From contig CAJNOJ010000143.1 of assembly GCA_905250025.1 (NCBI GenBank), positions 62,001-126,000 of the forward strand: a stretch of DNA of 64,000 bases, written 5' to 3'. Source of the stretch: Adineta ricciae (lineage: Eukaryota; Rotifera; Eurotatoria; Adinetida; Adinetidae). The notes beneath the pieces were generated by a model. That model was given only the letters and a program-made list of their open reading frames with translations, was not told the DNA's origin and made no database searches. The translations under genes were made by a program, and so were the position numbers. This document shows positions 1-61,600 of the stretch, one piece after another; position 1 is the stretch's first letter, and each line of letters starts with the position of its first letter.

Positions 1-692
1 CATGGTGGATTATGCATGCAAGCAAGAATTACAAGCAAAAACCTACGATTGATTTACATAAACGATACTCGTACACCATTGGTCGAAAATGTGACAATCA
101 ATGTTGTTAAAACATAAATACTTCTTAACACACGAATTATATTCGAAATCTAGAAATTGGAAAGAAACTAATTTTTAATAAATACGCGATTGTACGAACT
201 TTAGTCTAACATAGTTTATTGATAAATAAAAATCAGTTGAATAGTTGCATCGATGTAAGCGAGTTTATTCTCAGTCATCTATTGTACTTTATAATCTAGA
301 TCAAACGATATGTCCCAGAGCAAGACGACATAGATAATACTGTTCGTATTATCAACGATAGGAAAAAGACACGTGGATCAAATCCGAAATAAAAAGCGTC
401 GGTGATTTTTTTCGTTCTGTCATTTAATATCAATAAACAGACATGATCTTATCGTGCGCTGTTTAAAAGTACAGTATAGAAATAGCTGTTTCCTTACAGC
501 TGTTGCATTCTAACTACTTCTCCATTTGTGACTGTCATCTATGTACGATGTTCTGTTTCTTTCATTCTTTTAAGTCGCATTCAAATTATTGGTTGATTCT
601 AAGCGTGTAATGACGTCTTCTGTTTTGTCATGTGATTATATATTGATCACGTATGTCAAATCTAAGTAGTATTTTGCATTTGACTGTGAATT
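1..692. other. Intergenic, no gene seen
   Basis: AT-rich sequence with frequent stops in all frames. I see no coding exon, RNA gene or repeat. The last part presumably holds the promoter and 5' leader of the gene starting at 693. Confidence 0.5.
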
Positions 693-1172
693 ATGAGTGC
701 CGAAAACGACTGGGTGTTTGTCGAGAACGAGGATGAGACGAATGGCGAACTCGGAGTAGTTGCAATCGAGGAAATTACAGATGGAAATGCCGAAGGGCAA
801 AGCAAGCCAAGTTATGCTGCTACTTTACTGAGAAATATCGAACCAAATCGGCAGCAACAACAACGACCGGTGTTATCATCGACCGGATCAAAAAGGATGA
901 AATCAATGAATAACAAGGATGACGAAGACAAGGGAATCATGTCGTATGTCGAAGCAAAGCCTGGCAGCCAATATCGAAATCCTCGTGACAAAGCTGGTAG
1001 AAATAAAGTTCATGATGCTCGAAAAAGATCGACTTCTCCGCCACGGAATATCGGCAATTCAACAAAAACTGGCTGTTCATTTTGTAATCCTAAATTGACA
1101 AATCGTATTGAACGTACTCGAAATGTACGCCAACAATGTTCGAAAGTAAATTGGAAAGATTACGATTATTAA
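693..1172 (+). CDS. Small hydrophilic hypothetical protein
   Basis: Single-exon reading frame of 159 residues. The protein is very hydrophilic, acidic at the N terminus (ENDWVFVENEDE) and basic from about residue 95 onward, with no signal peptide or membrane segment. A C-F-C pair (around residue 128) is the only cysteine cluster in the middle. It looks intrinsically disordered and I recognise no domain. A canonical AATAAA lies at 1288-1293, about 115 bases after the stop, which supports a real transcript on this strand. Codon use resembles its neighbours. Function unknown. Confidence 0.6.
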   Translation: MSAENDWVFVENEDETNGELGVVAIEEITDGNAEGQSKPSYAATLLRNIEPNRQQQQRPVLSSTGSKRMKSMNNKDDEDKGIMSYVEAKPGSQYRNPRDKAGRNKVHDARKRSTSPPRNIGNSTKTGCSFCNPKLTNRIERTRNVRQQCSKVNWKDYDY

Positions 1173-1369
1173 CTTGAATCAAGTCTTCATAAACATATTT
1201 CGTCTCGATTTGTATATGCTCATCTTTTTGTAAATAGATCAAATACTCACAAAAAGACTAATTCAATCACATGACTAACAGATTGTAAATAAAGAAGTGG
1301 AGATATTTTATTTTCATCATAGATTATATTTTTGAAAATTCAGAGTCACAAATAAACGAAGACACGTAT

Positions 1370-2673
1370 TTAAACTCGTGGTTTTAATACTGCTTGATAC
1401 AAAGTTCTCTGTGTGTGTTCAACTAATGACAAGGTCATTTGTGAACTGTTGACTTCAACCATGCTAAAACCGCCAAGGAGAAGTCCCGTACCCCAAAAAT
1501 ATTTGAGTGAACCGGCAGGAACAGCAGCAGCATGTTTCTGACTATTTTCGACGATATTTCCGGCACCAACAACGAAATAATCCATATGTGAACCATCGGA
1601 ATCTTCTGCCAAATGCTTTAAAGCAGAAAAAAATGTACATTTGATGAATTTTATAAAGTAAATGTTACTTGAAGATTATGATCATGACCACAGATATAGG
1701 TTGTTGCCTTATATTGATGAAGTAAAGGACGAAGACGATCAACAAGACATTTGGTTGGACCGTGTTCAGCAACGGAATAGACTGGAAAGTGGCCACTGAC
1801 GATTAAGTATGGAGCACTTGAAGAGAACTCTTTGAAATTATCCTTTTATTTTTAATGTATCGACTTACGTAGATTGACGGAGTTGGCCTTCAATCCATTG
1901 CCAATAGGCTTCGGCGACGCGATTGTTCTTTGGACCATCTACTTCTGTTTCTTCCCAATCGGTTAAGTTTCCTCCTCCACATAGTAAAACGGTATCAATT
2001 ATAACAAAATCGACCAACTTTTTCGTTTTGTCACTTTCCCATAAGCTGAATGTATAGAAATAATCTGGATAAACCCTGTAGAAGAAATAACACAACATGC
2101 TGATCGATTCGTTGTCTGATCATCAATAAACGGTTTACCATCGATGTGATATTTTGCTGTATTCGATCTGCGCTGAAACGTTACCCAAATGATCATGATT
2201 ACCGGCCAACACATACCAAGGGGTTTGTAAAGATTTGGCGGTGAACACATCTTCGAATGTATGCTAGAAAAGAGGTATTCAATAAAAACGAAAAAAGACC
2301 AATTCATGTTAATCGAACTTTAAAACGTGGATCTGTAACTGATTGAACACCATCATAATAGAAATTGTCACCTAATGCTAACTGAAAGCTAGTATTCAAT
2401 TTTTCACCGATATGACCCATAGCAGCTGCTACTGCTACTTCGGATGGTGTCTTATATGGCACAAATGGTAAACCACCCCAATCACCGACAATCAAAAATC
2501 GTGCATTACCATCATCAGTTGCTTTTGCTACGATATCATTTCGTCCTGCAAAAATTGTAATTCAGAAATGAAAAAGAAAAACGATGGTTGAGTACAAACT
2601 TACCGAAGTTCGATGGAAATCCGAATGAAAATTGATAGAAGATGGTAAGAGAGAAAATCGCGATGAGAAGCAT
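1370..2673 (-). CDS. ACP5: Tartrate-resistant acid phosphatase type 5-like
   Basis: Six exons: 2673-2604, 2545-2319, 2263-2139, 2075-1869, 1816-1669 and 1615-1370, all with GT-AG introns of 53-63 bp, giving 340 residues, close to the usual size of mammalian ACP5. A hydrophobic signal peptide ([15 protein letters not shown]) starts the chain. All metallophosphatase motifs are present in order: [26 protein letters not shown] and GHDHN, so the dinuclear metal site is complete. The family hydrolyses phosphomonoesters in lysosomes or outside the cell. The start at 2673 was chosen because it begins the signal peptide; an upstream in-frame Met at 2760 would bury it. Probably an ordinary functional metazoan gene. 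Confidence 0.9.
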
Positions 2674-2907
2674 GTTGCAGGTATCAAAAACACGCAAATA
2701 GACAAAATGGCGGTGTGAAGAGAAGCACCGGCAAAATATATACATGTCGATTTTTCTCACGATCGAATACGCAGAAGCATTCTATTCTAGAACAATTGAG
2801 TTTTTCGCGTTGTGATAAAAAAAAGGCGTCATAAGCATTACAGATAAGAAAGTTATGTACGTTGAAAAAATTGTCGTTCCATTTTTTTTCTTTTTTATTG
2901 AAAATAT

Positions 2908-3887
2908 CTAAAAGAAAAGTGGAGATTCTTTATTCAATATCTGTACATTGAAACCAATTACTTGTTTAAAATTTGTTAACATAGTTTTAAGTTCTTCGTT
3001 GGGAAGAACGTTCGACAAATTCTTGAAGTCGTTCGGCGTACGTTCAGCAACAACTTTAAGCATTTCTTCGGAACCGTAATGTCGAGTTGCCAAAATCATC
3101 CTACTCAAAGCTGAACGTCGGAGATCATCGTACGCCTGTAGACCTTGGGGAGTAGCATCATATCGATCGAAAGAAAGAATCAATCCGCGAGCAACAAGGA
3201 TACTTTGAGATGCAACATTACTTCCAATTGAATACATAGGATGTGCAGCGTCACCAAGTAATGTGACACGACCGGTCATCGGAAGTTCATTGATAATAAT
3301 CGGTGATTTCACAAGTTGATGAATATCAAGAAAATTCAATTTCATATTGGATGTCAACGGAGGAAGATCGTGCAATCTGACCGATGTTATTCCAGTCAGG
3401 TATTTTAGGAGATGATTGTACTATTACATCAGTGATTCGAGCAGCACAAGTCCTATTGATAAGATCTTTATTTATAGGATAAATGATAAGTTCAACGCCA
3501 TCGGGATTGTCCATGAGAATCATTGTTCGTCCATCCAAGTAAAGTTCATCGGTTGGTTTAATTCCACGATAATTATGAAGTCCTCTCCAGAGAGGACATC
3601 CGTCATCATGATATAAGATTTTGAGTACAGTCGAATTAATTTTTGATTGAGTCGAGCAGCTGTTTCACCGATTTCATCCATTACATGTTCGAGTCCAAGT
3701 TCGTGGAGCAATTCTACACAAAACGAATGAAGGTTAACACCAAGCCAATCGGTTCATGAATACGAGCGGAATATCCATCACTATGCAAACACAGCGTAGT
3801 AACTAGGCTACCTATTCCAGCACCAACAATAAGAACATCGGCAATGTTCGATTCGGTTGTCTCGCGTTCACCATTAATAGATGTCAT
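2908..3887 (-). pseudogene. Decayed FAD-dependent monooxygenase
   Basis: The 3887 end encodes a typical flavin N terminus with the dinucleotide motif VLIVGAGIGS, and the 2908-3375 part encodes the conserved C-terminal block GDAAHPMYSIGS of UbiH/salicylate-hydroxylase-like monooxygenases. Between them the frame changes at least three times: near 3765, near 3640 where about 100 family residues including the second FAD-contact region are missing, and near 3375. The pieces LWRG and DGRTMILMDNP in between fit the family, but no GT-AG intron of normal size repairs these breaks. I therefore call an inactivated gene. The closest known families are bacterial and fungal, so the ancestor was probably acquired horizontally. 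Sequencing indels could explain single shifts but not the internal deletion. Confidence 0.75.
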
Positions 3888-4580
3888 TGTGCTGTTAGAA
3901 ATGACCGACCTAATTCATCGATTCGTTCAATATGACAATAAAAGAAAGCATACGAAACGTGTCGTAGGAAGGAAGAAAACAATTATGTCACCTATAATCA
4001 AGTAGAGAAACGAAAAATAATACACATAATAGGATATATTGTGTCGTCATTTAAATCATCGATTAACACTTTGTTCAACTTATCAAATGAAATTTTTAGT
4101 ATCAAATATTGTACTATACGGTTTTCTATATTACGAACATTATCAATGACTATAATCCGAATAACACAATACGGTAGGCTATATCCATTCGACAAAACAA
4201 AGTAAAACTGACTTTGCTAGTGCGTTAATTGTTTTCACATTTTATAATATTCGGCATGCGCTTGATACAATGATTTATTCTATTGAATATTCTTCATCTG
4301 GTTTCTTTTCTTACGTTTATCTCTTTCGCATGAGCTCTTGGCAATGATTGTTGTGAAATGCATGTCGTCAAACTGTCAAGATATATAATAAATCAGTAAA
4401 TCTGTTCGATCGATACGTACTGTAAATAGGTTTTTCCTGATCTTATCCTTACCCTTTTGTAGTATGTCCGAAAATTATAAGGAAAACAAGACAGATATCA
4501 GCTACTATGATGATATTATATTTATCAAATAAATAATGAGTTCTATACAAAAAAATAATTTTCGACGAAATACTCGTCCG
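3888..4580. other. Intergenic, no gene seen
   Basis: About 690 bases between two minus-strand genes. It is AT-rich with only short random frames. It includes the 5' flank of the monooxygenase relic and the 3' flank of the VWA gene. Confidence 0.5.
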
Positions 4581-5876
4581 TTAAGAAAAAAAACCAAACC
4601 CCATATCATCATCATCGCATTCTTCTTTCAGATGAGCATGATGGTGGTAACCTTGTGAAATAATTTTTGAACTCATATTTTTGTCTTGGAATTTTTTCTG
4701 CATATGCTCGGCTAATCGAAGTAGCATGGATACCGATCCCTTTTCGTCATCAAATTGTTCAGCATCTTTAAGTAGTTGAATTTGTTTTTCGACAACTTCA
4801 ATCGCAGCCTGTCGTTGACCATCTGCCATCAATTGAGCAATTTGTTTATCCATTTCAGATGCTTGTTGAGAAGCATACATAATCTTCACGCGAGGATCAA
4901 CATCTACAACAAGTGCATCATCTTCAACAAATCGAATCGATAATGTATTTTTAATGGAGCATGGTTCACCAAGAAGATTATCTGGTTGATTATATCGTAA
5001 TTCGTAGGTGAGAACTTCCACATCAGTGTTCGCTGCGCCGGTAGTCGTAAACTCACATAGAATGGATCGAGAGTTATTGCTAAAGAGATCGCCAAGACTT
5101 GCCCCAGCAACGAGATCGTCATGTCCCCAAATTTTGGTGACAGTTGCTCCATTTTTACCACGCACAAGAAGGCGAACACGAGAAGCACATACACCAAAGA
5201 CACAAACAAGTGCTTTAGTAACAAGTAATTCGATCAAATCAGACGAAGCAAGAAAATAAAATCGTGCTCCACCAGAATCAGCAATACCTTTCATAATTTC
5301 GCTGTCGAAATCGGCACCAATGCCAAACGAGTCAGTTATAATACCTTTTGTATTGTATCCCGCAACGAGTTTCGTTAACGCTTCTCGCGTTCTCATTCCA
5401 ACATTGGCTTGGCCATCAGAAAAGAGGAACATTCGTCGTGCAAATCCTTCGTAAACATATTTTTCAAGAAGGCCTGCACCGATTTCGAGAGCACCGGATA
5501 TGTTTGTTGATCCAGCCGTTTCAATATCTTCGACCAAAGGATAAAGATATTGACGAGAAGATGCTCGTGCATTTTCAAAGATAACAGACACATCACTATC
5601 GTAAGCTACGAGATGAACAACATCGTCATCATGAAGAAGATTGAGAACGGACACAACAGCTTTCTTGGCAAATGTTAATTTGTCGTTCGATTCCATCGAA
5701 CCACTGCGATCAAGAACAAGGACAAGATTGAGTGGTGTGCGTTTGTTTTTTTCTTCTTTAGCTTTCGTTTCGATGTCGAACCGAACTTTTTTCGTATTTA
5801 AAACTCCACTAAGAGAATTTGGATTGTCTGGAATGCAACGAAGATGAATCGTAGCCAGTTCGTTTTCAGCAGTCAT
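4581..5876 (-). CDS. VWA-domain protein, intronless, 431 aa
   Basis: One uninterrupted 431-residue frame. A von Willebrand factor A domain spans about residues 47-220. The metal-ion-dependent adhesion site is complete: D56-x-S58-x-S60, a threonine at about 124 in the GSTN turn and D154 in FSDGQ. No signal peptide or membrane segment is visible, so a cytosolic protein is likely. The C-terminal half is a beta-rich then helical region ending in a His- and Asp-rich tail. Architecture and lack of introns resemble bacterial and protist stand-alone VWA proteins (YfbK-like) rather than animal matrix proteins. Metal-dependent protein binding is the expected role; the partner is unknown. Horizontal origin is an inference. 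Confidence 0.8.
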   Translation of the reverse strand: MTAENELATIHLRCIPDNPNSLSGVLNTKKVRFDIETKAKEEKNKRTPLNLVLVLDRSGSMESNDKLTFAKKAVVSVLNLLHDDDVVHLVAYDSDVSVIFENARASSRQYLYPLVEDIETAGSTNISGALEIGAGLLEKYVYEGFARRMFLFSDGQANVGMRTREALTKLVAGYNTKGIITDSFGIGADFDSEIMKGIADSGGARFYFLASSDLIELLVTKALVCVFGVCASRVRLLVRGKNGATVTKIWGHDDLVAGASLGDLFSNNSRSILCEFTTTGAANTDVEVLTYELRYNQPDNLLGEPCSIKNTLSIRFVEDDALVVDVDPRVKIMYASQQASEMDKQIAQLMADGQRQAAIEVVEKQIQLLKDAEQFDDEKGSVSMLLRLAEHMQKKFQDKNMSSKIISQGYHHHAHLKEECDDDDMGFGFFS

Positions 5877-6140
5877 GGTGAGTTAATATACACTGAAATT
5901 GCTCTTCGTTAAGAAAGAGTTAAAGTCACATATGTATTGTTCCTACCGTTCGAAAAAGAAAAATGCTGTGAAGATTTTACCTTGTCGCGTAATAAAACAT
6001 TGAATGAATACATATTCAAGGTGAGCTATTCCTTTTATATGTCGCACACTTGGAGGAGCTGTTGTGCAATACTGATTTGAGTCATGTTATTTCGTAAGTG
6101 TTATAAAAATACCAGATAAGTCAGCTATACCACGATTCCA

Positions 6141-6349
6141 ATGAAATTCATTCGTTTCAATCTCTTACTCATTTCAACATTCCTGTTACGTAAATTTTAT
6201 CTTTATGGTATCAAGTACTTGGTATTGTAGTCATGTCGTTTTCCAAAAGCATTCATTACTGGAGTGACAGACATAATTGGAAGAGCATTTTTAAACGGCA
6301 AAAACGAAGATATTTTTGTAAACGAGTATTGAGTACCGCTAAGTGTTAA
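6141..6349 (+). CDS. Candidate small secreted peptide precursor, 55 aa
   Basis: Two exons, 6141-6189 and 6231-6349, joined by a 41-bp intron (GTAAAT...TTGTAG), give 55 residues. The first exon is a good signal peptide (MKFIRFNLLLISTFLL). The mature part is short and strongly basic, with possible convertase sites K38-R39, K41-R42-R43 and K47-R48, and only two cysteines, C46 and C55, which could form a C-terminal loop. This layout is that of a neuropeptide or antimicrobial peptide precursor, but I recognise no family and there is no repeat or amidation glycine. Evidence is limited to signal peptide, splice signals and frame; it could be fortuitous. Confidence 0.35.
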
Positions 6350-7216
6350 TGCATGAGCAAATGCCACTAGGACAATTCGCTGACATGATAATATTATTAA
6401 TTAACAGCGTTACATATGTAACTCAATTAATATAAAAACTATACTATTACCAATAATGTCGTTAGTGACACTAAGTGGAATTGAATAATCTAATGGTATT
6501 GTGAACAAGAAATATAGACTATTTGAAAATTTAATATAAATTGCTTCAAACCTACCAAAATATATATAAAATACAGAACTTAAATATTTAAAAATACGAA
6601 ATCTTTTAACGGAGAACTTTACTGAGTTGATGGATTTCCCAATCTTCTGAACTAAGCAAAAGTTCGGGAAAATTTTGCCGGGAAAATGACTCCAAAATAG
6701 TGAGTAATTTTTATCATAGTTCATTTAGCAAATATTCGACCGATTTTACAACATATGTCTGTTCTTTTGTGAGTGAAAATCTGAAAGGTTTTTCGTCAGA
6801 TACAAATTAGTTGAAAACACTGATTGCTATATAGAATGAGCTTCACTTCCTAACAAAGATCCTAATTAGGATACGGTTTCAGTTAATGTAGCAGTGTTAC
6901 AGTATACAGAATAAACTATCAAGCCTCATAAATTTATAAGAGGATCCGTTTTTCATTAAAAACAACATTAGTATTTGATACTATTTTAATCAGAACTATG
7001 AAATATTTAGCTGTTTTTTTGTTGAATCTGTTTTCATTACATATCTTGAAATCTTGCGTTTTTACGAACTACATTTTTGGGTTGTACAAATGTGTCGACC
7101 CTTTTGCAACGTTTACGTCTCTCTCTCTCTCTATCTGTAAATTATGTTAATCTTGTCACAACTAATTAATTACACGAGTAATTACTTGTGCGACGAATTA
7201 TCCGTTCACCGTAGGC
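6350..7216. other. Intergenic with a short CT microsatellite
   Basis: AT-rich, stop-filled sequence. The only landmark is a short (CT)n tract around 7118-7135. The minus-strand frame at 6410-6724 is Phe/Ile/Lys-rich with no recognisable domain and is probably fortuitous. Confidence 0.45.
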
Positions 7217-7468
7217 ATGTTAAACAAGACAGTTATATCAGGATTATCCGTATCAAAATGGAAAGGTAGCATATTGAAACACGAAGCTTTTAAGTATCAT
7301 TTTGATGCATATCATCTTCGAATTACATTTCTTGGAGAAGACCGACTATTATTGGAATATCTGCCAGTATCATATGACACGATAGATGTTTTCTTTGCTG
7401 TCTATGTCCCAGCTGGTGGAGAACGAATCTCTGTTCAAGAGAACGTAAGAGAAGTGCAAAATAACTGA
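7217..7468 (+). CDS. Unrecognised short reading frame, possible exon
   Basis: 83-residue frame with protein-like alternation of hydrophobic and charged residues (for example LRITFLGEDRLLLEY) and codon use like real exons here. The ATG is preceded at once by a CACCGTAG acceptor-like sequence, so this may be the last exon of a longer gene rather than a complete one, but I find no convincing upstream exon. Predicted mostly beta. No family recognised; it may be a gene fragment. Confidence 0.3.
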   Translation: MLNKTVISGLSVSKWKGSILKHEAFKYHFDAYHLRITFLGEDRLLLEYLPVSYDTIDVFFAVYVPAGGERISVQENVREVQNN

Positions 7469-7650
7469 AGAAACTTTCCTCCTGGTACAAATTAAATTTT
7501 AAACAAAAAACAAACTGAATAGAAAATTAGAGGTCAAAAGAAATGATATCCATATGCATGTCTGACGAACGTCTTTTTATTATTTAAAAATATTTTATTT
7601 ATAATCATTTTCAGGATACTCCAAAAATTCATATTCTCATACTGAACTGA

Positions 7651-8753
7651 TCAGTCTTTCGCGTAAATCTGTTTATGTGTTCTAAATGATAACAAATTCT
7701 TCAAATGCTTTCGATTGTACATTTTCTTCATATGAGGCGCCAGGTATGGTATAAAAATTGAAGTGATAATCAGAGCAACAATAGTTAAAACCCATTCCAA
7801 CGGCACTAACCATGTTGGAAGTTTACCATAGATAAGATAAATAATAGGGAAAACAGCATGCGGTATAGCACTTGACGAAAGAACTGTTAGTAAACGAATT
7901 ATGCGTTTTNATGAGGCGCCAGGTATGGTATAAAAATTGAAGTGATAATCAGAGCAACAATAGTTAAAACCCATTCCAACGGCACTAACCATGTTGGAAG
8001 TTTACCATAGATAAGATAAATAATAGGGAAAACAGCATGCGGTATAGCACTTGACGAAAGAACTGTTAGTAAACGAATTATGCGTTTTAAAATAGTCAAA
8101 TCTCGACGAACGCGAACTCGTTGCTTGAAAGTAACAATAGTGGAACTATTCTTTCGAACATAACATATTGTATGGAAATAACAACAAGCCATAATAGTGA
8201 ATGGAAGGAGGAATCCAACTAGACAAACTGTTAACGATCCACGCATATTTGCCGGCGAGAACTGACAATAAAAGTTATATGGTAAATATTGAATATCACC
8301 TATCATCAAACTTGGAAACAATTCCACTGCAGACAGAATCCATTGACCTATTAAAATGATGACATACAAACTAAACGGTTGACGTGTCGTTTGTAACGGA
8401 TAAAGAATTCGACAGATACGATAGATCGCTTGGATTGAAAATGAATGGAAAAATGTATAACCGCAAATGTAAAGAACATAAGCTCTAAGACGACATGACC
8501 GAACATCGAATGACAGATGAGGGTACAAATATCCATAAAGATAATGAAGGGACATGTCAATGAAAAGACAACTGATAAAAAACACGGCAATATAAGTATT
8601 GGCAATAAGGAGGCAATGAATACATTTGCTTTTGATCGCTATTCGATGGAGAATCATAACAATGAAAATAAAAGCCACGATACATATCTGAACGCACGAT
8701 AAAATGAAAATAATGGAGTACAGAATAAGATTTACACATTCTTTGGACATCAT
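7651..8753 (-). CDS. Rhodopsin-like GPCR, split by assembly artefact
   Basis: The frame starts at 8753 (MMSKECVN) and shows successive hydrophobic membrane helices, a cysteine before helix 3 and a degenerate DRY region (YRICRILYP). It is interrupted at the N at 7910: bases 7732-7909 and 7911-8088 are identical 178-bp copies. Dropping one copy plus the N leaves a continuous frame of about 307 residues ending at 7651 with a basic cytoplasmic tail, the normal size for this family. The gene itself is therefore probably intact. Likely plasma-membrane receptor of the rotifer FMRFamide-receptor-like expansion; ligand unknown. Confidence 0.8.
7732..8088. repeat. 178-bp direct duplication around an N
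   Basis: Bases 7732-7909 and 7911-8088 are identical, separated by a single N at 7910. This is the signature of two overlapping contig ends joined without merging, not of a biological tandem duplication; it breaks a GPCR frame that is otherwise open. Confidence 0.9.
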
Positions 8754-50621: not shown

Positions 50622-50649
50622 GACTGCTCGTAACAACTGAAGTAACGAG

Positions 50650-51626
50650 TCAATTTCAGTCTGCAACACCAAATTCTTAACACTGACTCTGATTCATCAA
50701 TTCCAGTAACGAGTGTTACTGATTCTGATTCCCAAGGTCTTTCCATGTGTAATGATAATGATACTATTGCTCAATGTCCTATAGAATCTGGTATATATTA
50801 CTATGTTAAGTATCATCTATTAATATTACTTCGATTTTGTAGATACTTCTATTATGAATAATGATGAAAATGTTCAAAATTTATCTTCTACTACGTCTAC
50901 TCCTAAACATAAAAAGTTCGAGATGAAGCGGAAGCCGATTATCTAAAATCTATTGCTAAACGACAAAAGCTATATGATAATACTATTAAAGAACAAAAAT
51001 ATGAGTTATGAGATCTTGTTGGTCTCCAAGTTGATCGTACTAATACAAAATCCAAGATTTTACCTTGCAAAGTGATCGCCATGGAGTCATCATCAAATGA
51101 TTGTATGCTGTACAAGCTGTGTACAATGAAAGGTGTTCTAGCAATTCGATATGGTGTTCAAGATCTTTTAGATCTGAGAAGATGTGATTTTGCGGATTTA
51201 CGTAGTATTGATTCAACAAATCTAGCAATAATGGCATTTACGCAAGCATGTAAAGATTAGATATCAACGGGAACAATTGAAGTTGCAAAAACATGTAACT
51301 GTAGCGGTAAATGTGCCACAAAATCATGTCCGTGCAAAGCAAAAGGTGTTAAATGTTGCACGAAGTCCCAGGTCGAAGAATCCAATACTCAGATCTCGTC
51401 GAATCCGAAACATGAATTTCCTGGATTTTATAAGGGTCATTATAGAACATAGCTAAAAAAATGGCTCATAAAATTTGCAACAACCGACGGGATTTTTCTA
51501 GTTGGATTCCAATGCAATTTCGTTTCCAGGAATCCGATAGGATTTTGTCGGATGGTCGGATCCAGCGTCGGATTTGTTGACCTGGGGTGTCATCCCAAAA
51601 AGAAGTGTCCATGTGCAAACGTTTAG
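50650..51626 (+). pseudogene. Integrase C-terminal relic (KRBA2-like), split by MITE
   Basis: After a Ser/Asp-rich part broken by an intron-like gap (about 50794-50843), the frame reads AEADYLKSIAKRQKLYD, then DLVGLQVDRTNTKSKILPC, MLYKLCTMKGVLAI and a cysteine-rich tail CNCSGKCATKSCPCK. This is the post-catalytic part of DDE integrases of the KRBA2/Ginger-like type carried by transposons. Two in-frame stops (YEL-stop and CKD-stop) and one frame change show decay. The tail is interrupted by a 220-bp element; removing it joins CCTK to CHPKKKCPCANV and a stop, which confirms both calls. The catalytic core is absent here. Confidence 0.7.
51367..51586. mobile_element. 220-bp MITE with 2-bp target duplication
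   Basis: Ends CCCAGGTC and GACCTGGG are exact inverted repeats; the match extends to 14 of 17 bases (CCCAGGTCGAAGAATCC against CCCAGGTCAACAAATCC). GT flanks both sides (51365-51366 and 51587-51588). Excising the element plus one GT restores the codons T-K-C-H-P of the host integrase relic, so borders and duplication are certain. No coding capacity; the superfamily is not obvious from a GT duplication. Confidence 0.88.
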
Positions 51627-52197
51627 TTATTTTTCTAAGTCATTTGTATTATTTCTTACTAGATTATAAAGTCTTGATACTATAGTTGTTAAAGATCAAA
51701 CAGGTTTTCAAGGTAATAAAACATGAAGAAATAGATTTAAAGATAAACTTGTTTCTGCTAGGGGAATTTAAAATTCCCCTATACGGGAAATCAAAATTTT
51801 AATTTCCCCTGTAACATATATAGAGATAGTAGATAAGCTCAAATTGGACCGGATAATTCAGCACACAAGTTCAGTTTTCCAGGCAATACAAACTGAAAAA
51901 AATAATTTTCTCTCTTCTGATTTTCGTATCTTTCGATGTTAAATGTTATCTATTAGTTGACTTCAAGTCAGAAATAGATAAGCAAATAGTTGAGAAAAAA
52001 AATACATTTACTTTTTCTGATAACGAAGCAAGTCATTCTATTTGTCTTCTATTTATGCAGTTTTCATTATCTACACAAATGCATTCTTATCTATTTGGAA
52101 GATCAAGAACATTAAACATTCGTCATAAATAAAAGGTACAAACTCATCACCTTCCCTTAGATTTCAAATTCTCTCGTACCAGACCGAAGCTTTTCAC
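51627..52197. other. Intergenic with paired palindromes
   Basis: Between the integrase relic and the GM2A-like gene. Contains two adjacent near-perfect palindromes at 51760-51780 and 51785-51808; otherwise AT-rich and noncoding. Confidence 0.45.
51760..51808. repeat. Two adjacent inverted repeats
   Basis: 51760-51780 reads AGGGGAATTT then AAAATTCCCCT, a 21-base palindrome apart from its centre. 51785-51808 is GGGAAATC..TTTCCC, 24 bases with one mismatched pair. Both share a GGGGAAATT-like arm, so they may be the remnant of a foldback element. Confidence 0.55.
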
Positions 52198-52909
52198 ATG
52201 CATTTACTTTTCATGACTGTTCTTTTAGCGCTTAATGGTGCTAACGCATTTGTTAACAAGCAAAAAGTAAACACAACGGAACTGGTGAATTCCTTAATAT
52301 GATGTGTTGTTGTCTTATTTTCGTAGGAACTCCGAGTTACAGCTTTTTCATGGCAAAACTGCGGACCAAGTAGCGATCCAATTCAAATTAAATCACTTTC
52401 AGTCAGTCCAGATCCAATTTTAGTACCTGGTACAAATACTTTATTGAGAAATATTGAAGTTTTTATATTTCTATTCTACAGGCAATCTGACTCTTAGTCT
52501 CACTGTTAATGTTGCATCGACAATTACAAACGATACTCATGTACGTAGAACTGAAATCTGAAAACAAAGTCTCCAGTTCATCCGTTCATTTCAGGCTGCA
52601 GTGGCCATGGAACGAAAAGTGGGCGGCGTCTTTGTTAAAGTTCCATGTGTTGATAACTTTGGCTCCTGCACTTATGAAGATCTCTGCAAAGATTGGGCCT
52701 CAGCTTGTCCGAAATACTTTGAAAAGTATGGTGTTCCCTGCAGCTGCCCAATTCCTCCTAAGACTTATACCATATCCGATGCTGTTATCGGCATCAACGG
52801 ACATTTACCATCTGTAGGCGGCGGTGAATATCGAATAACTGCCAATCTTCTTTCGAGTAAAGCTCATCTTGGCTGTATTAAACTTCAAGTTACTCTTAAA
52901 AAGGATTAA
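52198..52909 (+). CDS. GM2A: GM2 ganglioside activator-like protein (ML domain)
   Basis: Four exons, 52198-52266, 52327-52429, 52482-52540 and 52595-52909, give 181 residues, close to the size of human GM2A. Signal peptide MHLLFMTVLLALNGANA. Family motifs: FSWQNCG, SLSVSPDPILVPGNLTLS, KVPCVDNFGSCTYEDLC, YGVPCSCPIPPKTY and the last strand GCIKLQVTLKK. The eight cysteines of the family appear in the right places. In lysosomes such proteins lift glycolipids from membranes for hexosaminidase; invertebrate homologues may carry other lipids. It is the only intact gene in the repeat-rich block. Confidence 0.9.
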
Positions 52910-53424
52910 TACAAAGTGTAATTCTGTTCGAGAAAGTTTTTTTCATGTGTTTTTTTTTTTCGTTCTTATAAACAATAAAAAATGAATGATCCATTTTCAT
53001 AGATAAATCTTATCTGACGGATTGACTTTGTGTCCTCCTCGTAGATCTACATACTTCAAAGTTAGTTACATATTTCTCAGTATAAAATAATATTTTTGCT
53101 ATGCGCCTGCTATCTCCCATTTCTTCACTTCAATTTAACAGATATCAATATGCTTGTCTTCGAAGATACACATATCAAAGATTCCTATAATAAATTACTT
53201 TTCGCTCTCTCTTCGTTCTGTATTATGTACAATCAGACACGTAGTCATGCTCATCCGACACCCACATATGTGCCAACCTTCATGCAAATACCATTGTCGA
53301 ATCTGTATATTAGAAGCATTGTATTCTTCGTTTCATTTTCAAGCTCATCGCAAAGAAGAATAACAATATCAGACATTATTGATTCGCACAATGGTAAGTG
53401 TCTTTTGCTTATGCAATGACTTTT
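52910..53424. other. Intergenic, no gene seen
   Basis: About 500 bases between the GM2A-like gene and the hAT-type element. AT-rich; overlapping short frames with no domain. Confidence 0.45.
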
Positions 53425-53432
53425 GATTGTAT

Positions 53433-54246
53433 CAGACATGGGCAAGTCAAGTTAATTTTCGACTTGACTCAAGTCAAGTCAAGTCACAAGTCACTTGACT
53501 TGACCTGATCCGGAATATTTTTCAAGTGAGAGTGACTTGACTTGACTTGATTCGATTCAAGTCCAAAAATGACTTGACTTGACTTGGTTTTTAGTGCATG
53601 ATCAAGTCACAAATTAAGTTCAAAACTCTTCATGTACGTATATGCAAGTGTTTTATGTATTTCGGTTTTAATCTCGAGCATAATGTGTTAAAAATTTCAA
53701 ATTAAGAGTGACAGATACATTTAGAAAAAGGAATTCATATCAAAGATTCGCAAGTCAAACAATAGCGGAGCTAGGATTTGAGCTATAGGTGGGACTCTGT
53801 CTCACAACTGTTTCACTCGATCCTGGGAAATAATGATTTTAACCTACCAGAAGTGTCAGTTAGATATCAAAGCGTGGTGTCGCTACAGAGAACTTCTCTA
53901 AAAAGGCAAAAAGAAGATCAAAAAACCTTGTACTCCGCTCCTACGTTGGTGCCGATCCATAGAAAACCGGATTTGTCAAATTATTTATGTAAGCGTGCGT
54001 TCAACTAGCCTTCTGAGCTCCGCCATTGAATTCAAGTCCATTTTTTACTAGAATTGAGTCAAATCCAATGACTTGTGACTTGACTTGAATTATAACTTGG
54101 ACTTGAAGATTTTTAGATATGCTCTGACTTGACTTGACTTGCAGTTTTCAGATAACGACTATGACTCGACTTGACTTGACTTGAAGTCTTGAGATAATGT
54201 TTTTGACTTGACTTGGGTCAGAAAGCCGATGACTTGCCCATGTCTG
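53433..54246. mobile_element. Non-autonomous hAT-type element with CAAGT-rich arms
   Basis: Terminal inverted repeats CAGACATGGGCAAGTCA and TGACTTGCCCATGTCTG are exact over 17 bases. The 8-base sequence GATTGTAT lies directly on both sides (53425-53432 and 54247-54254), the 8-bp target duplication of the hAT superfamily. The arms are made of imperfect ACTTG/CAAGT repeats, mostly CAAGTCAAGTCAAGTC-like on one side and the reverse on the other, so the whole can fold back. There is no transposase. A second element is nested at about 53760-54028. Confidence 0.9.
53760..54028. mobile_element. 269-bp element nested inside the hAT MITE
   Basis: Sequence with no CAAGT repeats interrupts the two repetitive arms. 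Its ends are inverted copies of CAATRGCGGAGCT (CAATAGCGGAGCT and, reversed, CAATGGCGGAGCT). It holds a 76-codon plus-strand frame without a recognisable domain. No clear target duplication, so the borders are approximate to a few bases. Confidence 0.6.
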
Positions 54247-54762
54247 GATTGTATTTCGAAATAATTCAACAAACTATCGTTTAGTTTTACTTGACATTTG
54301 ATTTATTCTTCAGCACGACTCGATATCTTCTTGAGAACATAGAAACGCTCAACACTAGCATTCTAGTCACTCTTACATAACTACTATCGATGCTGAAAGA
54401 TAATAAAAAATCGTCTGTGATTTTCTTCTAATACTAGCTATTAACATGGATGTCACATTTTTCTTCATTAGCTATGCATACATCGATCGTCTATCATTGA
54501 AGAGTATTATTTTTGAATTTTTGCTGATTATGCATTAGTTAAAATTTTGAATGATTTGATCATGACGTATTTAACTACAAGTAATGCGGCCTAGTAGCCG
54601 CTAGACCCTCTACTGAAAGGATAATATTAGAGTTAGAGCGCTACTATTCGTCCAAAGAGAGAAAAAAGTTATTTCAGTTGAACGATCTGATCATTTGATA
54701 ATTTGTCAGAATGTTTTACTTAGACCAGTTTCGCTTCCTGAAATCTTCTGAAATTATAACGC

Positions 54763-58661: not shown

Positions 58662-61600
58662 TTACACTTCGTCCGAACTCAATCGTTGTATAATTGAATC
58701 TAACTTCTGACGATCTTGATATGTAATTGTTGTGCATTGTGCATAGATAGTCGATGCTCGCTGGTAATATTCCAGCGCAATCCTATATTGTTTTAAGTAT
58801 TCGTAACAAGTTCCAATATTAAATAAACTTTTGCCTAAATCTTGATGATCAGACGGAAGATTTTCTTCACGTATAAAGAAACACTTTAATTCATAAACTA
58901 ATGCAAGTTTATACTCATTTCGTGCGCGTTGTACTTCACTCAAATATGAAAGTGTATCGAGTATTGCTGAATGGTTAGAACTGAAATTAACCTCCCTGAT
59001 CTGTAACGATTTTTCATAGTACTCGATTGCTTGTTCATAATTCAACTTAATAAAACAAATAAAACCAATCCATTGTAAATAACGTGCAATTNCATTTCGT
59101 GCGCGTTGTACTTCACTCAAATATGAAAGTGTATCGAGTATTGCTGAATGGTCGGAACTGAAATTAACTTCCCTGATCTGTAACGATTTTTCATAGTACT
59201 CGATTGCTTGTTCATAATTCAACTTAATAAAACAAATAAAACCAATCCATTGTAAATAACGTGCAATTTGATTATGATTATTTGGATAATGTTCTTCATA
59301 AATGCTCAATGCTAGTTTATACGAGTCAAACGATTCGTCATATTTACCTTGACGACTTAAACTACTTCCAATAAAACTAAGTATATTGGCAATGTTTGAA
59401 TGATGTGATGGATAGTACTTATCGTAAATATCTAACTGTTTACGATAATAATCGACAGCTTCGTCATATCTTCCTTGACTGTTACGAATATTCCCCATAT
59501 AGTGAAAACTATCAGCAATATTCATATACCCAAGGGGATAATGTTGTTGTCGAATATCTAACGCGCGTTGCTCATATTCAAATGCTTGATCGTATTTTTC
59601 TTGATGGTTCAAGCTCGTACCTATATTACTAAGAATTGTAGCGATGTCGGAGTATCGAAACGACGAATTTGTTTCATAGATATGCAATGCTTTTTTGTAG
59701 AAATCAATTGCTGCATTGTATTTGCCCTCGCTACTACGAATATTTCCCATATAGTTCAAACTCAATGCCATATGTGCATTGTCTGAATCGTAATATTTCT
59801 TCTGAATTTGCAGAGCTTTCTCGTGATGTTGAAAAGCTTCATCGCATTTACCGAGACGATATAATATTTTACCAATATCATTGAGACTCGTTGCGTAACT
59901 AATATGTTCCGACGAATGATAGGTTTCATAGATTTTCATAGCACGTCGATGATAATCAAGGGCTTCGTCGTTGTTCTTTTGATTACTCAAAATATTGCCA
60001 ATATTACTTAACGTATGTGCAATATTAACATTATCCGATGAATAATACGTCTTTTGCATGTCCAATGCTTGTCGATAGTAAATCAGCGCATCGGAAAACT
60101 TTCGCTGTTTATTCAAATTATCACCAATATAATTGAGATTAATGGCTAAATGTCCTGAATATGTGGGATAGTATATTTCTAACATTGTCAAAGCTCGTCG
60201 ATGATGATCAAGTGCTTCTTCGTATAAACGTTTTCCTCGAGAGAAGATATAACCAATATTATTCAAAATACAAACGTTATCTAAATGATCAGCTAACTGG
60301 TATTTTTCTTGCATGATCAATACTTGCTGATATAACTCTAAAGCTAAGTCATAGTTTCCTTGCCCATATGTTATATTTCCAATATTACTCAAACTTGTTG
60401 CTATATCGATGTGACCACGTGGATAAAATTTCTTTTGAATTAAAATTGCACGTTGAACTAATTCGAGTGCATCATCATGCTTTTTCTTCAAATAGAGAAT
60501 ATTTCCCATACTATTGTAAGTTAACGCTAGATAGATATGATCGAATGGATAATATTTTTCATAGATCGATTTTGCTTCGTGGTGATAATTCAAAGCTTCA
60601 TCGTATTTACCTTGATCAATCAGAACATACCCAATATTTCTTACATTCGTTGCAATATCAATATGAAACGAATGAAAATATTTTTGACGGATCACTAATG
60701 CTTGTCGAAGATAATTCAATGCTTCATTGTATTTCAATTGTTGATAATGAACAAGACCAAGATTTTCCAAACTGGTGGCAATGTGTGGATGATCGAGTGA
60801 CGAATGAATTTTCTTCCGTATAGACAATGCATTTTGATGATACTCATAGGCTTGTTCATATTTGCCTTGTAAATGTAATACTTCACCTATATCTGATAGG
60901 ACACATGCCGAATTATACGAAGAATCTGGTTGACTGCTCAGTACTTGGTCATAAAATTTTCTTGCCTGAATCCAATCTCCTTTCCATCGATGAACTTGGC
61001 CAAGGCAGTGTTGAATTGAAGATGAATCTTCCTCATGAAAGTCATTCAATAAATTTTCAAAATATGCTTGCGATTGATCCCATTGACACTGATCGCAAAT
61101 CAATCGTCCGAAAATAACTGGAGTTGATAGATTTTCGAATAAGGCACGTGTATCATAAAGATACTTTTTGATTAATTCTCGTCCATGCTTGACAACATCC
61201 ATTTCTATTATCCAAACATTATCCTCTTGAAAAATCTTTTCCAGGTGAAATGTTGTATTAAAATGAAACAGGATTTGCTTTTCTTTCGATAGGCAGATTT
61301 CAGCGAAAGTCGCGTAGTCTTTTGTTTCCTGTATATTACATTGAATTCGGAAAAGGACAGGAATGGAATCATCCAATCTGGAGAATTGTCGACTTATGAA
61401 TGGCCGTGAATAGGAGCATATGAGGAATTTTTTCATGGACATCAGTTGGCCTTGATTATTGATGAATTTATCGAAATCATTTTTCGTTAAATTCATTCGA
61501 TGATAAACAATTAGGACATCAGTATTCGATTGTACGTATTGCTGATGTCGAGTATCGAGACATTGGATTAAATCACCGAGAAAATATCTTATGGTGTAAA

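Follow-up and report, generated by a model that had tools for sequence, protein, structure and literature searches.

A non-autonomous hAT transposon with subterminal CAAGT/ACTTG arrays in the rotifer Adineta ricciae

Known hAT ends and the Adineta element

Most hAT transposons carry subterminal repeats, according to a 2023 study of Hermes (PMC10368747). The study gives AAGT as the minimal site for binding by the BED domain of Hermes, a site that works well with an AT-rich stretch after it, and reports that each end requires about 200 bp to function in cells. AAG(T/C) motifs lie towards the Hermes tips, with five in the first 55 bp of both ends, and in the LE11-27 complex two sites, apparently A15-T18 and G20-T23, are 5 bp apart centre to centre (PMC10368747). 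Transposition was not dramatically lowered when the putative inner sites of the left end were mutated, and the authors regard help from additional transposase bound at inner sites as unlikely; the study leaves open the role of repeats well inside hAT ends (PMC10368747). It also describes Tol2, where AAGT motifs are likewise present and mutation of the subterminal repeats lowered excision, and Ac, whose subterminal repeats are recognised cooperatively by the N-terminus of the transposase (PMC10368747).

We analysed a window of 64,000 nucleotides from A. ricciae (contig CAJNOJ010000143.1, positions 62,001 to 126,000), in which an element of 814 bp occupies positions 53433-54246, with no strand assigned. 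Evidence for the element comes from its terminal inverted repeats, target site duplication, subterminal arrays and a survey of end pairs. It resembles Hermes in its 8-bp duplication and in the AAGT motifs towards its tips. Unlike those of Hermes, the motifs form a tandem pentamer array, longer and denser (35 in 814 bp) and regularly spaced, and AAGT is often followed by CA, whereas the Hermes site is favoured by an AT-rich stretch after it (PMC10368747). The transposase frames found between ends of this type have 769 and 790 codons, compared with 612 residues in the longest listed Hermes chain. Like hAT MITEs, the element is non-coding, shorter than 1 kb, perfectly flanked by an 8-bp duplication and bounded by ends common to coding relatives; unlike them, its body exists in few copies, and the 26 end pairs surveyed span 66 to 7234 bp. 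The pentamer is unlike the AAACGG motif of Ac.

Borders, insertion and copies of the element

The left terminal inverted repeat, CAGACATGGGCAAGTCA (53433..53449, plus strand), is 100% complementary over 17 nt to the right one (54230..54246, minus strand; 17/17). CAG...TGG is the consensus of hAT-type terminal inverted repeats, and the short, identical termini of the element are of the hAT type. On the plus strand, the octamer GATTGTAT directly adjoins both arms on the outside, at 53425..53432 on the left and at 54247..54254 on the right (8/8). Exact 17-bp terminal repeats and a perfect flanking duplication had both been proposed in a first-pass annotation of the window, and both are confirmed.

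The left subterminal array (53443..53649, element positions 11-217) holds CAAGT/ACTTG motifs in both orientations, while in the right array (54033..54236) 14/15 motifs share one orientation, ACTTG on the plus strand; neither array is assigned a strand. They enclose a middle part (53650..54032, likewise without a strand) that contains one motif only and is common to copies on contigs C816 and C410 and partly to one on C101. No open reading frame of at least 80 aa lies inside the 814 bp among those listed for the window. The middle part also contains the imperfect inverted pair GCGGAGCTAGG / AGCTCCGCC. This pair hints at a possible nested second transposon, a reading that is doubtful, as no matching 8-bp duplication was seen by eye. 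At three mismatches or fewer, the left terminus of the pair occurs in this copy, C816 and C101 only, that of C410 lying beyond the limit.

Folded as a single strand, the element reaches -116.3 kcal/mol, against -81.2 ± 5.8 kcal/mol for 20 shuffles (z = -6.0), in line with the strong foldback structure noticed in the first reading. This potential arises because the motifs stand in both orientations at inverted ends. The same folding score, together with arms rich in short repeats, might instead indicate a fold-back element, moved or regulated through hairpin-forming arms. Foldback (FB-like) elements have long inverted repeats made of tandem units and no short exact hAT termini. Here, exact 17-bp termini and an 8-bp duplication are present, and the left array mixes both orientations rather than forming a clean long inverted repeat. 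Mobility is accounted for by the exact short termini, the 8-bp duplications and the hAT transposases encoded between such ends, and we consider a fold-back element very improbable.

To examine the insertion itself, a script spliced the two flanks together and set them against two paralogous loci. One of these, L081, lies on the same contig near 4.75 kb in reverse orientation (contig C143) and is 96.9% identical to the joined flanks over 1178 bp; the other, L082, lies near 22.5 kb on C52 and is 95.6% identical over 1336 bp. Both run through the junction without the element and carry GATTGTAT once. The segment thus exists in three copies, and there is direct evidence that one of them received an insertion that duplicated 8 bp. 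The element was thus either gained after the split of these segments or lost from both others. The proposal of a recent insertion holds in so far as two such similar segments lack the element, but its nearest copy is already 10% diverged.

The segment to the left of the insertion (window 50630-53432) recurs at 94-97% identity at C143:4753-7339, in reverse orientation on the same contig about 110 kb away, and partly at C52:20908-22510. At 51364-51588 lies a repeat of about 220 bp that is dispersed in the genome and whose inverted ends, CCCAGGTC...GACCTGGG, are imperfect; with 40 of 362 candidates scored, at least 37 other places match it at 83-93%, and the paralogous segment lacks it at C143:6592-6594. 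This repeat is a better candidate for a true MITE than the 814-bp element. Elsewhere in the window, two-copy tandem duplications with 97-98% matches are found at 7731-8089 (179 bp, overlapping the end of an open frame) and at 58915-59268 (177 bp, inside an open frame). An X, an unreadable codon, is present in both frames, and each duplication may be either an assembly error or a recent event. In the genome, runs of five TGTGGG units gave 28 overlapping hits on six contigs, a count of no discriminating value, as the reversed control is this repeat in another phase.

Copies of the element were sought in the assembly, which may be incomplete; all copy counts are lower bounds. A full-length match on C816 (90%, 810 bp) is flanked by a perfect duplication, GTATGTGA. 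The match on C410 is partial (84%), with one degenerate end and without a duplication, and C101 holds a fragment of the middle part and right end (78%). With the middle part alone as query, these three and the present copy were the four places found. Weaker matches at C729, C72 and C12 (71-75%) extend past the left array.

The ends are far more widespread. At two mismatches or fewer, the terminal 17-mer is found at 101 places in the genome, against nine for the reversed pattern, indicating that ends of this type are common to many elements. We examined 26 distinct end pairs with at most two mismatches per end. Their flanking octamers agree at 8/8 in 13 and at 7/8 or better in 15, while a cross-pair control gave 8/8 in 8/650 comparisons; these eight matches occur because octamers recur among the 13. 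Of the 13 perfect duplications, four consist of CCATAAGA or its complement and two of ATCGAAAA, which reduces them to nine distinct sites; the recurring octamers probably reflect one insertion carried along inside a larger repeat. Short elements flanked by CCATAAGA or its complement are located on C93, C467, C744 and C792 (L039, L092, L076 and L095). A member of the same group on C292 (L091) shows two differences between its two sides, and the five together suggest insertions carried inside another repeat. Five additional pairs with a 3-mismatch end (L053, L055, L060, L064 and L084) were left out of the counts, and none of them reaches a 7/8 flanking match.

A perfect duplication is absent in 13/26 pairs, including that of the coding element L070. 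The first-pass annotation had made its reading depend on flanking octamers not being unlike at most copies; with 13/26 pairs at 8/8 this point was not reached, but it was close. It had also called the element a MITE. The size of 814 bp and the lack of an open reading frame of at least 80 aa agree with that name, but the high-copy, homogeneous family that it implies was not found, as there is one nearly full copy at 90% and a few partial ones. The label fits loosely; the element is a hAT transposon of an ordinary, non-autonomous kind, with few copies.

Coding relatives and subterminal arrays

A coding relative with the shared type of end was sought, and long open frames were found in two elements. 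In L071 (contig C699), 3288 bp between such ends, with GTTAAAAC on both sides as a perfect duplication, contain an open frame of 790 codons whose first ATG is codon 10. In L070 (C283), 3224 bp between such ends contain a frame of 769 codons starting from ATG. The encoded proteins share 49% identity across an alignment of 746 positions. These intact frames sit between CAGAGATGGG ends, not CAGACATGGG. The exact CAGACATGGGCAAGTCA end is found in L073 (C347), beside the remnant of a transposase that is truncated. At the DNA level, positions 1-118 of the element are 80% identical to the left end of the L070 coding element, and its right array is 75% identical to the right end of L070 over 171 bp and 80% identical to that of L073 over 178 bp.

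The dimerisation domain Dimer_Tnp_hAT (Pfam PF05699) was detected in three of four scanned frames (L071, 9e-10; L070, 5e-11; L074, 4e-11), while the Pfam scan of the L072 frame gave no match. Among PDB structures, Hermes matches the L070 transposase best, with a whole-sequence E-value of 1.7e-9. In this alignment, only the C-terminal stretch with a Glu is significant by itself (1.9e-5); for the CxxH/RW stretch the value is 0.1, and the VTD stretch lacks significance. We take this Glu to be catalytic and presume two Asp to be the other DDE residues, which are placed in the coding relatives by motif and weak alignment. The motifs LDxWTD, VTDN, PCFAH, TRWN and ERxFS are present in both L070 and L071. 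A CCHH finger pattern spans residues 66-93 of L070 and 96-121 of L071. Pfam zf-BED stays below the cut-off in L070 (E = 0.084) and gives nothing in L071, and the finger region, compared with the PDB, matched ZBED2 at E = 0.74, with unrelated chains about equal. Comparison of the L070 transposase with contigs of viruses (viral_contigs; 3 pattern stretches) and of bacteria and archaea (genome_contigs; 12 pattern stretches), collections that say little on animals, confirmed none of the stretches.

Some of the P, Merlin and Mutator-like superfamilies make 8- to 9-bp duplications, and the 8-bp duplication by itself would be compatible with an origin in one of them. The frames between such ends, however, have a hAT dimerisation domain and similarity to Hermes, leaving another superfamily an extremely remote prospect. 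The original hAT assignment is upheld by the 8-bp duplications, by the empty sites and by the hAT transposase frames that such ends enclose, and the element is very probably a non-coding, non-autonomous hAT transposon.

Two further observations concern these loci. On C604 (L069, positions 1-8500), a 7.2-kb pair of such ends encloses a second, distant hAT of about 27% protein identity, on the reverse strand (frames 1748-3085 and 3215-3919), with CAAGT arrays of its own in 33-bp units. In L073 (C347), an open frame at 1640-2530 adjoins the remnant hAT transposase and, going by a motif impression, presumably resembles a Tc1/mariner-type transposase.

CAAGT and ACTTG together occur 35 times in the 814 bp; 1000 dinucleotide-preserving shuffles gave 2.9 on average and never more than 10. 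Fourteen doubled motifs are present in the element and none in the remaining window. All but one of the 35 motifs (34/35) start at element positions 11-213 or 601-800, the last one at 319, and the element thus has subterminal repeats near both ends, as expected of a hAT transposon. The description of arms built from 5-mers is therefore correct as to the 35 motifs, but not as to their place in the interior, since 34/35 lie within the terminal ~215 bp.

The motifs are also clustered at both ends of L070 and L071. Across the genome, we counted motifs at 52 distinct ends, those of the 101 places with 300 bp on both sides. With the first 17 bases excluded inward, the mean per 300 bp is 7.9 inward and 0.54 outward, where the inward stretch of elements shorter than 300 bp passes through the opposite end. 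At least six motifs are present inward in 34/52 ends and outward in 0/52. Thirty other hAT-transposase loci of the genome have 0.65 motifs per 300 bp, a weak control, as these loci were trimmed to the surroundings of the transposase domain and their ends may be lacking, and the rest of the window has 0.62.

These arrays are putative subterminal repeats to which the N-terminal zinc finger of a transposase would probably bind, in many copies at once. This reading rests on the restriction of the arrays to ends, on their presence in coding relatives and on the AAGT core known from Hermes. That core and the arrays of the coding relatives also make the 5-mers less unusual than they had seemed at first reading. 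We know of no named family with such 5-mer arrays, and a new family is likely. In open-licence PMC articles, no paper was found on pentamer subterminal repeats in hAT MITEs, and searches with CAAGTCAAGT or ACTTGACTTG returned nothing on hAT by title; the accessible portion of the main text of PMC7943196 contains neither hAT nor MITE as a whole word.

Spacing of the motifs and its possible origin

Distances between same-orientation motifs show peaks at 21, 26-27, 31-32, 36-37, 41-42, 47, 52-53, 63, 68, 73-74 and 78-79 bp. A periodogram of distances from 11 to 100 bp at 33 ends, the number left when near-duplicates are removed from 56, peaks at 0.50 for a period of 5.25 bp and gives -0.19 at 5.0 bp. 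The value of 5.25 bp is half the usual helical repeat of 10.5 bp. A full turn of 10.5 bp as the period is not favoured.

We reduced the effect of shared descent by keeping only linkers more than 45% apart in edit distance, with strands collapsed, and 27 remained. Their spacings are 12, 12, 15, 18, 18, 21 (six times), 22 (twice), 27 (four times), 31, 31, 32, 33, 37, 37, 42, 44, 63 and 69 bp. For this set, R is 0.62 at 5.25 bp and 0.51 at 5.0 bp; none of 20000 jittered sets was as high, and one of 4000 was when all periods from 4.5 to 6.0 were allowed. For the 22 linkers with spacings of at least 19 bp, R rises to 0.77 at 5.25 bp and 0.56 at 5.0 bp, with 0/20000 jittered sets and 0/4000 across all periods from 4.5 to 6.0. 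In opposite-orientation linkers, the phase is not significant (10 and 7 linkers, p ~0.4 and ~0.6).

Fifteen ends of selected elements were also taken singly, and 14 had enough pairs. In thirteen of these the power at 5.25 bp exceeds that at 5.0 bp, and in one the two are tied; within the range 4.5-6.0, each of the 14 has its peak at 5.25-5.35, although single ends are not independent (the element and C816, for example, are 90% alike). For three ends, at most 5/2000 jittered sets reached the observed value; for ten the number lay between 10 and 184, and for one it was 502. Taken alone, both arms of the 814-bp element are only weakly phased (68/2000 and 117/2000). One end of L072, with eight pairs, peaks at 5.65 bp and gives -0.28 at 5.25 bp. 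When ends were grouped by shared linkers, 46/56 fell in one of 11 components; for the two components with enough pairs, L070 agrees with 5.25 bp and L072 disagrees. The arrays of the hAT-like insertion on C604, built from the same pentamer in a 33-bp unit, give -0.08 and -0.05 at 5.25 bp, their own best periods being 5.45 (0.37) and 5.50 (0.19).

Same-orientation repeats thus tend to stand at multiples of about 5.25 bp, also across sequence-distinct linkers. This is a new observation; a search of open-licence PMC for helical phasing of hAT subterminal repeats returned, by title, only other kinds of transposon. At such multiples, each site shares a helix face with the one before it or lies across from it. 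Both a putative binding constraint and descent from an old duplicated unit are possible causes of the spacing.

Descent would be the whole explanation if the arrays were inert and had arisen by slippage from a short tandem repeat or from an old duplicated unit of 37/42 bp, with the spacing inherited from that unit. Runs of pentamers are a common mark of slippage. Within 54095-54215, Tandem Repeats Finder detects units of 37 and 42 bp, and with near-duplicate ends removed these are the commonest same-orientation distances after those of 10 bp or less. That inner sites at the left end of Hermes could be mutated without dramatic loss (PMC10368747) fits such a history as well. Against it, no linker spacing above 18 bp among the 27 is a multiple of 5, the arrays lie inward of 34/52 ends and outward of none, and they are carried by both ends of coding elements whose proteins are 49% identical. 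We regard inert arrays as unlikely, while giving the idea some weight.

In the reading that we favour, a hAT transposase from a related element elsewhere in the genome would recognise the ends of the 814-bp element in trans, its N-terminal zinc finger probably contacting the CAAGT/ACTTG arrays. It would cut at the terminal repeats in a cut-and-paste reaction, and insertion into an 8-bp staggered target would leave the duplication; of these steps, insertion, duplication and empty sites are seen at this locus. Sites arranged in this way on the helix would fit a transposase that acts as an oligomer and so brings together many DNA-binding domains. Tentatively, and with considerable doubt, we propose that such an oligomer grips half-turn AAGT arrays from both helix faces as one rigid, phase-locked unit, so that selection on binding, and not descent, would keep 5.25 bp while the linkers change freely.

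The element itself is ordinary, and what is useful is the natural record of hAT end architecture that it belongs to. A single genome holds 56 motif-bearing ends with varying numbers of motifs, a spacing rule and long open transposase frames. Together, such ends and frames permit a direct test of how hAT transposases use the repeats that lie well inside their ends.
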